Part shown: in pieces, positions 463 through 13,399 of the stretch
Layout: each line of letters begins with the position of its first letter
Position numbering within the stretch: position 1 is the first letter of the stretch
Virus record (IMG/VR): IMGVR_UViG_3300025655_000340
Coordinates: 1 to 21,642 of that record
Length of the DNA stretch: 21,642 nt
From: a virus
Strand: one strand, 5' to 3'
Notes under the pieces: model-generated
Seen by the model: only the letters and a program-made list of their open reading frames with translations
What the model was told of the DNA's origin: nothing
Database searches by the model: none
Position numbers and translations under genes: made by a program

Positions 463-986
463 ATATTTTTTAAATCCTTGATATCATTTAATTTATTTAA
501 CTTCTCTTGTTTTATCTCATAGAGCGGTGCGTAAGTTTTAAAAGAAGTTCCATCATCTCTTGTTCGAAGATCACCCTTATTATAAAAGTCAGCAGTCTCT
601 AAAAATTTTTTCTTATCCAACCAACCACAAAGTTGTACGGTCTTTGTGTTACGATTTATATTTACAAATAACAAAACATCAGAAGATATTTCTTTTTGAT
701 AGCCAACAAAATTGTGTACCCAATCATCTCTCATATCGTGTTTACGAAGCATAGATTTTACATCTACCTTTTTATTATTTACTAAAATATCAGTATCAAT
801 TCTACCTTCATTATAATTAGGAGGATCCATTTCTAACAATCGATGCACAGTTAAATCTCCAATTAAACCTGTATATTGTTTTTCATAGTTACCATTAAAT
901 CCAGAACTACGGTTACCAAAGTTTTTATATTTTAAAACTTCAACTGCTTTTTGTCTGTCATCATTATTTATTTCTACATTAATCAT
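459..986 (-). CDS. Predicted PD-(D/E)XK-fold nuclease-like phage protein (175 aa)
   Basis: A longer frame opens at 1007, but the ATG at 986 is the likely start: it has GAGAGG a few bases upstream and overlaps the preceding stop as ATGA. The protein has a helix around residues 40-53, then DTDILVNN followed by KKVDVKS, which fits the D...(D/E)-x-K active-site spacing of PD-(D/E)XK nucleases (D64 or D66, D75, K77). The next strands and the C-terminal half (GWLDKKKFLETADFYNKG) resemble small phage restriction-endonuclease-like proteins. I recognise the fold pattern but not a named family, so activity and substrate are inference. It sits between a homing endonuclease and a RecB-like exonuclease. 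Confidence 0.75.
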   Translation of the reverse strand: MINVEINNDDRQKAVEVLKYKNFGNRSSGFNGNYEKQYTGLIGDLTVHRLLEMDPPNYNEGRIDTDILVNNKKVDVKSMLRKHDMRDDWVHNFVGYQKEISSDVLLFVNINRNTKTVQLCGWLDKKKFLETADFYNKGDLRTRDDGTSFKTYAPLYEIKQEKLNKLNDIKDLKNI

Positions 987-1384
987 TGGTTCCTCTCTGT
1001 TATCCACATTCTGTAATGATCTAAATTTACTACATTATCTTTCTTTTGTATGGTTGAATAATGTTCGATCACTTGTTGTATCTTATCTAACTTTACGTGA
1101 GCGTAAGGAAACAATAAACAACACACGTGAAAGCAATCTCTAAACACACAACGCCATCTGTATTGCATCTTGTGCCCGTTCTTTCTAGGTTTTTTATTTA
1201 AAGTACCACAACCTAAAACTTCTGTTAACCAAACTAAAACAGATTTATCAGTCATTGCAATCTCCATCGAGATTCTCCAACAATCATAGGTCCCTTTAGC
1301 TTTCTTTTCTTTGTATTTTTTGTAAGTGATAGTTCCTTCGCCATCAAATAATCCTGCAATGTACGCAGCTTCGGCCTCTGTCAT
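983..1384 (-). CDS. Free-standing LAGLIDADG homing endonuclease-like protein
   Basis: 133 aa with one clear LAGLIDADG helix near the N-terminus, AAYIAGLFDGEGTI at residues 6-19; the last acidic residue of the motif is E16. A single motif suggests an enzyme that would work as a homodimer, as in the I-CreI class. The central part is Cys-rich (RWRCVFRDCFHVCC), and it ends in a helical segment. The ATG has AAGGAGAAGAA just upstream, a good ribosome binding site, and overlaps the previous stop as ATGA. No intron or interrupted gene is visible around it, so it looks free-standing and expressed as part of the operon. It could be a mobile selfish gene or one recruited for phage use. Confidence 0.85.
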   Translation of the reverse strand: MTEAEAAYIAGLFDGEGTITYKKYKEKKAKGTYDCWRISMEIAMTDKSVLVWLTEVLGCGTLNKKPRKNGHKMQYRWRCVFRDCFHVCCLLFPYAHVKLDKIQQVIEHYSTIQKKDNVVNLDHYRMWITERNQ

Positions 1385-9767: not shown

Positions 9768-10538
9768 TTAGTACGGAGTTGAATCCGATACTTTCTCTTC
9801 CACATCAGCTTTTGTTTGAACGGTCCCTTTAGATACATTTCCAGAAAAGTCTTTTGCACTTAAGTACAAAGCCTTATCTTCTTGTCCTAAAATTCTGTCC
9901 TGTGTAACAACCCAGCCATACCAAGAACCTTTATCGTTCTTTTGTAGCGTAGATGTTAGATTATACACAACTCCGTGCATAGGAGGGATAGCAAATCCAC
10001 CCTTGCCATCAGCAATTTGTATGGTTTTCATCATAGAATTCCATTTTTTACTGACATTTAATTGAGTTGATTTCATTGTGATCAAAGCAGGAGTATAACC
10101 ACCAGACTTTGTCTCAATCATTACATAGTAAGATGCAGTCTCTTCAAGATAATTACCATTAGGTAATCTAATCTTTGAGCCATCTCTCTTACCTGTAGCG
10201 ATTACCGCGCTGTTCGGTAGGTGAATTGCCACAGGTGCTCCTGGACCATCCCCTCTATCCGACCATTCTGGATAATCTTTTTTGTAGTAGCAAGGAATAA
10301 CCTTGATACCTTTTTTACCATCGTATAACTCGCTGGTAACAGTATTGTAGATCATACCAGGTTTGGCACCATCTATATACTTTGCATCACCATCAGTTAC
10401 CTGCGGTGATAACTGTCCCAAGATTCTGACAAAAGGCAAAGCCATATCGTCTTGTGTCATATTCTCGAAACCTTTAGCTGCATCATCACCAAACAAGGCA
10501 AGTGATCCAGTATCTTTTTTCATTACTTCATTACTCAT
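9768..10538 (-). CDS. Predicted phage single-stranded DNA-binding protein (256 aa)
   Basis: The start is taken at 10538, which has GGAG eight bases upstream; the longer frame to 10601 would run into the neighbour. After a polar N-terminus comes GFENMTQDDMALPFVRILGQ, LSPQVTDGDAKYIDGAKPGM and IKVIPCYYKKDYPEW, a pattern I recognise from a phage family usually annotated as ssDNA-binding or hypothetical. The middle is beta-rich with many glycines, consistent with an OB-like fold, and the C-terminal region is acidic (VEEKVSD), as in many SSBs. It lies next to the primase and the strong hairpin. The function is inferred from family memory and context; the OB fold is not proven. Confidence 0.72.
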   Translation of the reverse strand: MSNEVMKKDTGSLALFGDDAAKGFENMTQDDMALPFVRILGQLSPQVTDGDAKYIDGAKPGMIYNTVTSELYDGKKGIKVIPCYYKKDYPEWSDRGDGPGAPVAIHLPNSAVIATGKRDGSKIRLPNGNYLEETASYYVMIETKSGGYTPALITMKSTQLNVSKKWNSMMKTIQIADGKGGFAIPPMHGVVYNLTSTLQKNDKGSWYGWVVTQDRILGQEDKALYLSAKDFSGNVSKGTVQTKADVEEKVSDSTPY

Positions 10539-10551
10539 TATTTTTTCTCCA

Positions 10552-11112
10552 TTATTTCCGAGTGATTTTAGTTTTGTCTTTAATCCAAGTACTAAAGACA
10601 TCAGATGGCATATCGAGCCCGGACTCGATACGCTCTCTGAATAGAGCAGTTAATGTCATCCAAGCCACATCAGATTTCTGTTGCGGCTCATACCCATTGG
10701 CTGCTGCAAGGTCCAACAATTGTTTCGCCTTGTCATCTTCTCCTTTACCAAAAGTTACAAAGACATTGTTTTTAATAATATCTCCTAACCCCTGTTGTCG
10801 AAGCCATTCATAGGCTGCTTCCCTCTTCATTTCATCTTTTGGAAGAGTGCACCTAAATTCTTTTTTTACAGATACTTTAGATCCATCAGCTAATTTTATT
10901 TCTGACAATCCTTGCTCTGCAAGTAATTCTGGTATCACACGAGAACTGATATCATCAGCCTCTGCTTTTTTATTTTTAAGTTGCTCCTCTAACGCAGCAA
11001 TCTCATCTTCTTTTTGTTTCAACTTTACACATTCATCTGCAACAGTTGTAACTTCTACGCTGTCTAAAAGATCTTTAGAATCTTCTAGCATCATATTTCT
11101 TACTTCACTCAT
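10552..11112 (-). CDS. Conserved phage protein with N-terminal coiled coil (186 aa)
   Basis: Residues about 25-57 (CVKLKQKEDEIAALEEQLKN) form a coiled coil; the second half contains SEIKLADGSKVSVKKEFRCT, AAYEWLRQQGLGDIIKNN and a C-terminal ALFRERIESGLDMPSDVF...KITRK. This matches a widespread phage family of unknown function (I recall it as DUF7173, not with certainty) usually found beside SSB or recombination genes. AAAGGAT lies just upstream of the ATG. It is probably a DNA-replication accessory, judged from company rather than motifs. Confidence 0.78.
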   Translation of the reverse strand: MSEVRNMMLEDSKDLLDSVEVTTVADECVKLKQKEDEIAALEEQLKNKKAEADDISSRVIPELLAEQGLSEIKLADGSKVSVKKEFRCTLPKDEMKREAAYEWLRQQGLGDIIKNNVFVTFGKGEDDKAKQLLDLAAANGYEPQQKSDVAWMTLTALFRERIESGLDMPSDVFSTWIKDKTKITRK

Positions 11113-11114
11113 TG

Positions 11115-11513
11115 TTATCCTTTCTGATATCCGTCCACTTCTAATGGATAGTATCTATATTCACGTTTGTCCCACTTCAACATATTAAACTGTCCGTTTG
11201 TAGTTTCACCTACTAGCCAAGTTGAGATACCTATTATTACAGGATCTCCTACAGCAAGTAAATAATCTTCTTTACGAAAATCTTGTAAATTTTTTCTCAT
11301 TTTTTGCACGTATGGTGCAGTAGAAAATATTGCTTGGTCCCTGTTGGGTAAGCATATTACAAGATAACCAAAATCAGACGCACTTAATATATTTATATTA
11401 GGTGGTGGTTGTTGAATTACATAAACAAATTTTTCTTTAGGATTGCTTTTATGAAATTCTAAAAAGCTTGCCAAAGAATCTGGTTTGTATAACTCAAATA
11501 TTTTATTTTTCAT
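11115..11513 (-). CDS. Conserved hypothetical, first gene of the leftward replication operon (132 aa)
   Basis: No known domain recognised. The protein has a VYVIQQPPPNINILSASDFG segment, LVICLPNRDQAIFST and KEDYLLAVGDPVIIGISTWL, which look like beta strands of a compact domain. It is the promoter-proximal gene behind the leftward promoter at 11533-11560, with a very short leader and only a weak ribosome binding site. Being first in the operon hints at an early role. It ends two bases before the next gene. Confidence 0.72.
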   Translation of the reverse strand: MKNKIFELYKPDSLASFLEFHKSNPKEKFVYVIQQPPPNINILSASDFGYLVICLPNRDQAIFSTAPYVQKMRKNLQDFRKEDYLLAVGDPVIIGISTWLVGETTNGQFNMLKWDKREYRYYPLEVDGYQKG

Positions 11514-11523
11514 TTCTTACTTC

Positions 11524-11552
11524 TTGACAAGAGATATAATAGTATTTATATA
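11524..11552 (+). promoter_or_regulatory. Rightward sigma70-like promoter for the SNF2 gene
   Basis: TTGACA at 11524-11529 is a perfect -35; TATATA follows at 17 bases (11547-11552), or TATAAT at 19 bases (11549-11554). Transcription would begin near 11559, about 22 bases before the ATG of the helicase. It is one of two promoters sharing these bases. Confidence 0.7.
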
Positions 11553-11560
11553 ATTGTCAA
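11533..11560 (-). promoter_or_regulatory. Leftward sigma70-like promoter for the replication operon
   Basis: On the minus strand TTGACA (11560-11555) is a perfect -35, and TATATC lies 16 bases later (11538-11533). It would start transcripts near 11526, just ahead of the 132-aa gene. The -10 region of each promoter falls inside the spacer of the other, so both cannot be occupied at once. Confidence 0.65.
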
Positions 11561-11580
11561 CTAGAAAGAAGAAAAAAATT

Positions 11581-13014
11581 ATGAATTATAAATTTAAAAC
11601 AAAACCATACGCCCATCAAATTACTGCGTTAGAAAAATCGTGGGATAAAAAAGAGTATGCATACTTTATGGAAATGGGTACAGGTAAATCAAAAGTGTTA
11701 GTAGATAATATTGCTATGCTGTATGATAAAGGTAAAATAAATGCGGCACTAATTATAGCACCAAAGGGTGTTTATAGAAACTGGTTCTCTCAAGAAATAC
11801 CAAATCATTTAGCTAGTCATATAGATCATAAAACGGTACTATGGACTGCGACTACATCTAAAACAAAGGATAAAGAGTATCAGCAATTATTTAAAGTAGA
11901 CATAGACCTTCACATCCTTGTAATGAATGTAGAAGCATTTTCGACAAAGAAAGGCCTAGAGTTTGCCACAAAGTTTCTTAACTGCCACAATACACTGATG
12001 GCTATAGATGAATCTACAACTATAAAAACACCTACGGCTAAAAGAACTAAAGCTATTCTTGCATTAGGTTTACTTGCTAAATACAGAAGAATACTTACAG
12101 GTTCTCCTGTAACTAAATCACCACTAGATTTGTATACACAGTGTGGTTTTCTTGACAGTTTTTTACTAGGGTTTGATAGCTATTATGCATTTAGAAATAG
12201 ATATGCAACAATGCTAGATCGTAACTTTGGTGGACGTAAAGTACAGATTGTAGGTGGTTATAAAAAACTAGGTGAGTTATCAGAAAAACTAAAACCTTTT
12301 TCTTACAGAGTATTGAAAGAAGATTGTCTGGACCTACCAGAAAAAACTTACATACAAAGAGAAGTAGAACTAACTGATGAACAGAAACAAATATATTCTA
12401 CTATGAAATCCGCGGCCCTCGCTTCTCTAAAAGGTAAGATGGCAACCGCGCCTCACATACTTACACAAATGATGCGTTTACACCAGATCACCTGTGGTCA
12501 TTTAAAGAATGATGATGACACTATTACAGAAATTAAAAACAATCGTATGACATCGTTGTTAGAATTGCTTGAAGAAGTAGAAGGTAAAGTAATTATATGG
12601 GCTAATTATGTGTATGATATTAAACAGATAGTCAAAGCTATATCTAAAAAATACGGCGAGAATTCTATAGTACAATATTATGGCGCAATTCCAGCAGAAA
12701 CAAGGCAAAAAAATATAGAAAGATTCCAGGACCCAGACTCCGATGCACGATTCTTTGTTGGTAATCCACAGACAGGTGGTTATGGTATTACCTTAACGGC
12801 TGCTAACAATATGATTTATTATTCTAATGGATATGATTTAGAAAAAAGGCTACAGTCAGAAGACAGAGCACACAGAATAGGTCAAAAGAAGTCGGTAACA
12901 TACATCGACCTTATAGCACCAAAAACTATAGATGAAAAGATTAGAAAAGCTTTACGTAAAAAGATCAATATAGCTACAGAAATTATGGGTGAGGAGTTAA
13001 GAGATTGGATCTAA
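11581..13014 (+). CDS. SNF2-like superfamily 2 DNA translocase/helicase
   Basis: 477 aa from the ATG at 11581; an upstream TTG in frame lies inside the promoter, so it is unlikely. Motifs in order: Q-like YAHQITALEKS at 10-20, motif I EMGTGKS at 31-37, motif Ia ALIIAPKGVYRNW, motif II as DEST (143-146), motif III LTGSP at 172-176, IIWANY near 338, motif V GGYGITLTAA near 399, and motif VI QSEDRAHRIGQ at 425-435, the classic SNF2 box. No extra DNA-binding or nuclease domain is attached. Such stripped-down proteins are common in phages and may remodel or clear proteins from DNA. It is the main member of the only rightward unit. Confidence 0.94.
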   Translation: MNYKFKTKPYAHQITALEKSWDKKEYAYFMEMGTGKSKVLVDNIAMLYDKGKINAALIIAPKGVYRNWFSQEIPNHLASHIDHKTVLWTATTSKTKDKEYQQLFKVDIDLHILVMNVEAFSTKKGLEFATKFLNCHNTLMAIDESTTIKTPTAKRTKAILALGLLAKYRRILTGSPVTKSPLDLYTQCGFLDSFLLGFDSYYAFRNRYATMLDRNFGGRKVQIVGGYKKLGELSEKLKPFSYRVLKEDCLDLPEKTYIQREVELTDEQKQIYSTMKSAALASLKGKMATAPHILTQMMRLHQITCGHLKNDDDTITEIKNNRMTSLLELLEEVEGKVIIWANYVYDIKQIVKAISKKYGENSIVQYYGAIPAETRQKNIERFQDPDSDARFFVGNPQTGGYGITLTAANNMIYYSNGYDLEKRLQSEDRAHRIGQKKSVTYIDLIAPKTIDEKIRKALRKKINIATEIMGEELRDWI

Positions 13015-13211
13015 TAATTTTAAATGATGGTCTGTATCAATTGATACCTGTTACAAAACAAATTATGGAAGGCATAGTAATAACTGGTGATGTAGATTGT
13101 TTTGATTTATGTGACATATTTCGAGAAAAACTTACGGGCTATGTATATACTTTGAATCTACATATAATGAATGATGGCTCTGGTAATTTTATGGGTTGCA
13201 TTTGTAGGTAG
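13005..13211 (+). CDS. Small ORF after the SNF2 gene, unknown function (68 aa, TTG start)
   Basis: The TTG at 13005 overlaps the helicase end by ten bases and has GAGGAG eight bases upstream, a better ribosome binding site than many real genes here. The protein begins MDLIILNDGLYQLIPVTKQI, has DVDCFDLCDIF in the middle and ends SGNFMGCICR, with four cysteines. It is slightly acidic and compact; no family recognised. Coupling to the helicase suggests a small partner protein. A later ATG (13065) would give 48 aa but lacks a comparable signal. Confidence 0.5.
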   Translation: MDLIILNDGLYQLIPVTKQIMEGIVITGDVDCFDLCDIFREKLTGYVYTLNLHIMNDGSGNFMGCICR

Positions 13212-13254: not shown

Positions 13255-13399
13255 TGAAAGCTCAAGGGCGTACAAATCTTGCCACTGGCATTTCCCTGGA
13301 CGTTACCGATGACCTGCAAGGGTAGGGACCTGGAGTTTGGCCGGCTGTTAGTACGTGCACGGAAAGCAGCTGGTTTGATATGACTAAACTAATTTTTTT
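13255..13399 (+). ncRNA. G+C-rich intergenic segment, candidate structured RNA ending in a T-tract
   Basis: The gap between two converging units (13212-13383) holds no convincing gene. From about 13258 to 13376 it is clearly richer in G+C than the rest of the window. Pairings visible by eye: CTTGC 13278-13282 with GCAAG 13316-13320; TCCCT 13293-13297 with AGGGA 13324-13328, crossing the first as a pseudoknot; CCGGCTG 13341-13347 with CAGCTGG 13367-13373; and AGTTT 13334-13338 with AAACT 13386-13390 enclosing it. A run of seven T follows at 13393-13399. One pair is a G-U only on the plus strand, favouring a rightward RNA. It could be an independent small RNA, the 3' end of the SNF2 transcript, or a terminator region. 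Unproven. Confidence 0.5.

Follow-up and report, generated by a model that had tools for sequence, protein, structure and literature searches.

A conserved 37-base site with two opposed promoter-like sequences between the SNF2 helicase gene and the replication operon of an HTVC023P-type pelagiphage

Phage lambda carries two close divergent promoters, PR and PRM, which stand back to back, are associated with the CI/Cro operators and serve lysogeny. The overlapping opposed promoters Pc and Pr of plasmid pLS20 exclude each other (PMC4207663). Mutual exclusion has also been described for bidirectional promoters of E. coli, where competition makes a difference only when activity is high, and where improvement of one -35 box represses the opposite direction in most cases (PMC12825309). 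Bidirectional promoters of E. coli and Salmonella are defined by a shared -10 element, with starts 7-25 bp apart (PMC12825309, PMC10268837). The type of arrangement that we describe here is already known from pLS20 Pc/Pr and from these bacterial promoters.

We analysed a 21,642-base stretch of viral DNA (hereafter the window), which protein searches identified as a fragment of an HTVC023P-type pelagiphage; the hosts of these phages are SAR11 alphaproteobacteria. The SNF2 protein of the window is 86% identical to that of phage 023Pt_psg01 (MW574966), 60% to that of HTVC027P and 46% to that of HTVC023P. The deposited records of these three phages start at the junction of SNF2 and the Pam3 gp32-like gene, and have the same divergent layout. 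One published account describes HTVC023P-type phages as widely distributed and counts them with the most abundant pelagiphages (PMC9599517). HTVC027P, which is of this type, was described as lytic and was reported to lack an RNA polymerase gene and to depend on the host enzyme, and RNA-seq data of its infection are public (PRJNA1253180; PMC12753301). Promoters are not mentioned in the published accounts of HTVC023P-type phages that we searched. In the window, the leftward operon begins with homologues of Pam3 gp32, gp33 (Gam-like) and gp34, followed by primase, helicase and DNA polymerase A. The block SNF2-gp32-gp33-gp34 is co-directional in Pam3, whereas SNF2 is divergent in the window and in DSL-LC04.

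The two gene starts are separated by a gap of 67 bp, which contains TTGACA and its inverse TGTCAA with 25 bp between them, together spanning 37 bases (Table 1). The opposed perfect -35 boxes claimed in the first-pass annotation are thus exact. This is the sole pair at this spacing in the window. According to first-order Markov shuffles of the window, the chance expectation for such a pair is 0.003 per window for a gap of exactly 25 bp and 0.035 for gaps of 20-30 bp.

The site resembles pLS20 Pc/Pr in that the -10 and -35 boxes of one promoter coincide with the -35 and -10 boxes of its partner, in that one start, predicted in the case of the window, is only a few bases away from the -35 box of its partner, and in that one polymerase would be accommodated at a time. 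It differs from pLS20, where a strong promoter is combined with a weak, regulator-dependent promoter (RcoLS20 and DNA looping), in that both -35 boxes match the consensus. With the bidirectional promoters of E. coli and Salmonella it shares a pseudo-symmetric sequence and, as predictions, divergent RNAs and steric exclusion. However, it falls outside the Warman/Grainger definition of a bidirectional promoter, with separate -10 elements, predicted starts ~34-35 bp apart and two perfect -35 boxes. In contrast to lambda PR/PRM, the promoter cores overlap in the window, and at the site itself we found neither a repressor nor a lysogeny module.

Table 1. Coordinates of the putative promoter elements and flanking genes in the window.
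Feature	Position	Strand	Remarks
-35 box, rightward (SNF2) promoter	11524..11529	+	TTGACA, preceded by C (CTTGAC); 0 changes in 5 of 6 bases (83 tips)
-35 box, leftward (replication operon) promoter	11555..11560	-	TTGACA on the - strand; 0 changes in 5 of 6 bases
-10 region, rightward promoter	11546..11554	+	three candidate hexamers; 4-6 changes in columns 11547-11552
-10 region, leftward promoter	11533..11539	-	TTATAT 11539-11534 or TATATC 11538-11533
Predicted rightward start	11559..11563	+	A near 11559-11560, in leftward -35 box; predicted from the -10 to +1 distance
Predicted leftward start	11524..11526	-	A near 11525, in rightward -35 box
SNF2 leader	11563..11580	+	AGAAAGAAG, Shine-Dalgarno-like; other genes here carry AGAAAGGA ahead of ATG
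SNF2 family helicase, first gene of rightward unit	11581..13014	+	PF00176 (1.2e-22), PF00271 (1.4e-12)
68-aa ORF after SNF2, rightward unit	13005..13211	+	no family
Pam3 gp32-like, first gene of leftward operon	11115..11513	-	PF23992 (3.8e-31); leader AAGAAGTAAGAA
Pam3 gp33-like, second gene of leftward operon	10552..11112	-	PF23984 (2.7e-34); relatives annotated as host-nuclease inhibitor or DNA-end-protecting

Conservation and specificity of the paired boxes

Relatives were retrieved from IMG/VR by their SNF2 protein, and hence were not selected for the 37-base site. The pattern TTGAC[AT]-N24..26-[TA]GTCAA was present directly upstream of SNF2 in 90 of 96 distinct loci, with SNF2 proteins 73-100% identical to that of the window. 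Both boxes were perfect in 82 of these 90 loci, and the gap measured 25 bp in 78, 24 bp in six and 26 bp in six. In four further loci the pair was found upstream of a gene inserted ahead of SNF2. The remaining two loci were left out because their contigs were incomplete. Hence, both -35 boxes and their spacing (24-26 bp) were kept in all 94 informative loci; we looked for a close relative that had lost one of the two boxes and found none among them.

Parsimony changes were counted on a tree that FastTree built from 83 SNF2 genes. The six bases of the left box had 0, 0, 0, 0, 0 and 3 changes, and those of the right box 2, 0, 0, 0, 0 and 0. The absence of changes at 10 of the 12 positions indicates purifying selection on these elements. 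The three bases just inside the left box each changed 24 times, the rightward -10 element 4-6 times and the leftward -10 element 6-16 times per base, while fourfold-degenerate sites of SNF2 had a mean of 16 changes and a minimum of 4. The -35 boxes are better kept than the -10 elements, which is unusual compared with E. coli promoters and speaks against the promoter reading.

Specificity was assessed by scanning IMG/VR for TTGACA-N17-TATATA-N2-TGTCAA, which matched at least 80 loci. Among the matches listed, 77 of 80 were oriented as expected and adjoined SNF2, gp32 or both, in some cases on incomplete contigs, and two (L408 and L427) lay at the SNF2/gp32 junction but matched on the opposite strand. 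Thus, 79 of the 80 matches listed were at this junction or beside one of its genes, and a single one (L387) had neither SNF2 nor gp32. The strong conservation over ~100 relatives implies that the 37-base site is very likely a real common start point for two phage gene sets.

In several loci the site at first appeared to be lost (L017, L026, L171 and L243, and L142 and L149 in the sister clade), but it was displaced by an inserted gene. All six carry extra sequence with apparent genes between the site and SNF2, and are otherwise similar phages. The region just downstream of the promoter site may be a hot spot at which genes are inserted. We also considered whether SNF2 might start at a TTG codon at 11554, within the right box; this start was rejected because 1-base insertions separate this TTG from the ATG in relatives (e.g., L016).

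The -10 elements and the proposed initiation

The rightward -10 element has three options, namely TTATAT at 11546-11551 (the alphaproteobacterial frame, N17 after CTTGAC), TATATA at 11547-11552 (N17) and a perfect TATAAT at 11549-11554 (N19). The leftward options, TTATAT and TATATC, have a spacing of N15-16, so that there is no perfect E. coli -10 element in this direction. Taken as TTGACA-N17-TATATA rightward and TTGACA-N16-TATATC/TATATA leftward, the -35 to -10 spacing is within 16-19 bp on both strands. The core elements interleave, with each -10 element inside the partner's spacer. This bears out what had been stated in the first-pass annotation, once the -10 elements are defined; TTATAT can be read both ways in the window.

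A mechanical scan for E. coli promoters (N16-18, T at position 6) reported neither promoter, owing to its spacing and T6 rules. Scoring with an E. coli -10 matrix was abandoned, as it picked hexamers at N18-19 and its leftward signal fell short of that obtained with the alphaproteobacterial consensus. The latter, CTTGAC-N17-CTATAT, derives from Sinorhizobium meliloti (PMC2873474) and was judged suitable because the SAR11 hosts are alphaproteobacteria. A CTTGAC -35 box, a TTATAT/CTATAT -10 element and a spacing of 16-17 bp are common to the site and to this sigma70 consensus, which is not from SAR11. We scored matches to CTATAT at N16-18 after TTGAC, using the Sinorhizobium consensus rather than one measured in SAR11. 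At most one mismatch was found for the rightward -10 element in 60 of 67 distinct sites and for the leftward -10 element in 47 of 67, compared with 6% of shuffled spacers in either case.

The two-promoter reading of the site is well supported. We consider it probable (roughly 80%) that the site consists of overlapping divergent sigma70-type promoters that are used by the RNA polymerase of the SAR11 host and feed both units. The rightward promoter (TTGACA, N17, TATATA) would drive SNF2, and the leftward promoter (TTGACA, N16, TATATC or variants) would drive the operon with gp32, the Gam-like gene, primase, helicase and DNA polymerase. Transcription would start near 11560 (+) and 11525 (-). Since each -35 box coincides with the partner's predicted start and each -10 element lies in the partner's spacer, a polymerase bound one way would exclude the other. 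The idea that polymerase can sit in one direction at a time, already put forward in the first-pass annotation, thus follows from the geometry together with published work (PMC4207663, PMC12825309). With two consensus -35 boxes, polymerase competition at the site is plausible. In its simplest form, initiation would be constitutive, shared and alternating between the two directions, presumably early in infection, and one compact site would supply both units.

These results point to a specific and highly conserved site of control, at which transcription of the replication operon probably begins. The site may offer a clean test case for polymerase competition in a lytic phage. If the reading is true, it would be a solid but modest step forward and would not establish a new principle.

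A second geometry in the sister clade

Loci with ~60% SNF2 identity, of the HTVC027P type, have the pattern TTGACT-N17-TATATA-N16-AGTAAA instead. Read leftward, this gives TTTACT-N16-TATATA, which implies that a single palindromic -10 element serves both directions. The sister clade fits the Warman/Grainger definition of a bidirectional promoter, with one TATATA used both ways. The pattern matched 55 of 60 loci, 51 of them with exactly N17 and N16. The five exceptions were HTVC027P itself, which fits across the start of its record, L142 and L149, in which the site was displaced, a variant (L134) and one locus of the 25-bp type (L160). Zero change counts in the sister-clade boxes arise by construction, as the pattern itself picks the loci. 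AGTAAA holds its position even though it lies nearer to, or farther from, the SNF2 start codon in different loci. The symmetric TTGACA pair is absent from the sister clade, where the boxes TTGACT and AGTAAA surround one -10 element; hence the exact boxes and their spacing are clade-specific. Neither the 25-bp pair nor the shared -10 arrangement was present in HTVC023P itself or in DSL-LC04. Being members of one phage group, the two clades lend themselves naturally to a comparison of two designs of a two-way promoter.

Alternative readings and further features

The leftward -35 box hardly varies, although the leftward -10 element is poor in ~30% of distinct sites, which suggests that this box may have an additional role. 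Conceivably, the paired boxes are one dual-use element, whose invariant bases serve as -35 box for transcription one way and as start region, or as contact for a regulator, for transcription the other way; we regard this as rather unlikely. If it were true, a lytic marine phage would fix the ratio between two early gene sets by a single polymerase-occupancy toggle, and this logic would have been rebuilt in sister clades in two geometries, a 25-bp interleaved pair and a shared palindromic -10 element.

The first-pass annotation had also suggested a switch early in infection. This would require unequal overlapping promoters at which a regulator tips the polymerase, as in pLS20 Pc/Pr. The overlap geometry equals that of pLS20, and with a perfect -35 box in each direction, occupancy could reach the high level that brings out competition in E. 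coli. However, two equally perfect boxes favour joint use, the phage group, including its cultured member, is called lytic (PMC12753301), and the E. coli bidirectional promoters that were tested did not compete at basal activity (PMC12825309). Overlapping promoters need not be switches, and the suggestion is left unsupported; we consider a regulated switch unlikely.

A phage-encoded dimer might instead bind TTGACA...TGTCAA as an operator and repress, or select between, the two promoters. The near-perfect symmetry, which places the half-site centres at a distance of 31 bp (roughly three turns of the helix), is in line with this natural operator of the first-pass annotation, as is the stronger constraint on the boxes than on the -10 elements. 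The only candidate regulator that we saw, among some of the proteins of a window that covers part of the genome, is a 57-aa ribbon-helix-helix-like protein below the Pfam cutoff, whose gene (1693-1866, -) belongs to the leftward operon. Yet the altered boxes in eight loci (five AGTCAA, three TTGACT) were in all cases accompanied by an unaltered partner box, the gap varies between 24 and 26 bp, and changes have reached saturation at the positions immediately inside the boxes. Moreover, no second copy was found in the window or in 50 kb of MW574966, the sister clade does without the symmetric pair, and one-way TTGACA-N16-TATATA promoters stand ahead of another gene in sister-clade phages. The uncompensated changes, the variable gap, the lack of a second copy and these one-way promoters favour promoters over an operator, which we consider quite improbable. 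An outer 26-bp inverted repeat, which takes in both of the purine-rich leaders that precede the start codons, was dismissed as an operator.

It is very improbable that the rightward promoter alone is real, that TGTCAA is retained as the discriminator or start region of this promoter, and that transcription of the leftward operon comes from elsewhere: the rightward -10 element is better kept and the leftward one often poor, but leftward -10 elements are still far above shuffles, TGTCAA is an exact -35 match at N16 from the leftward -10 element, and the sister clade keeps its leftward -35 box (AGTAAA) independently of the SNF2 start codon distance.

Several other features were observed in these phages. 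The ribbon-helix-helix-like protein (RHH_1, E 0.026) is 91% identical in MW574966 and 32% identical in HTVC027P, and its gene has a promoter-like upstream region of its own. Just downstream of the SNF2 unit and on the same strand, positions 13258-13375 (+) match the Flavobacterium-1 RNA (Rfam RF02976; 93.5 bits, E 9e-17); this match also occurs in the near-identical L001 and L002, and is absent from nine other relatives scanned. MW574966 (L084) has ~400 bp of unannotated sequence at 10194-10601 with a perfect TTGACA-N17-TATATA at 10437 on the - strand, possibly an unannotated RNA, for which Rfam gave no match. A TCCCATA-like motif recurs near promoter-like sequences, at ~1870-1910 in the window, at ~10580, 16945 and 17065 in L084, and at ~7955 in L086. 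Finally, a 133-aa ORF of the window at 983-1384 (-) resembles a LAGLIDADG homing endonuclease by eye (AAYIAGLFDGEGT), and the matching region of MW574966 carries an annotated HNH homing endonuclease.
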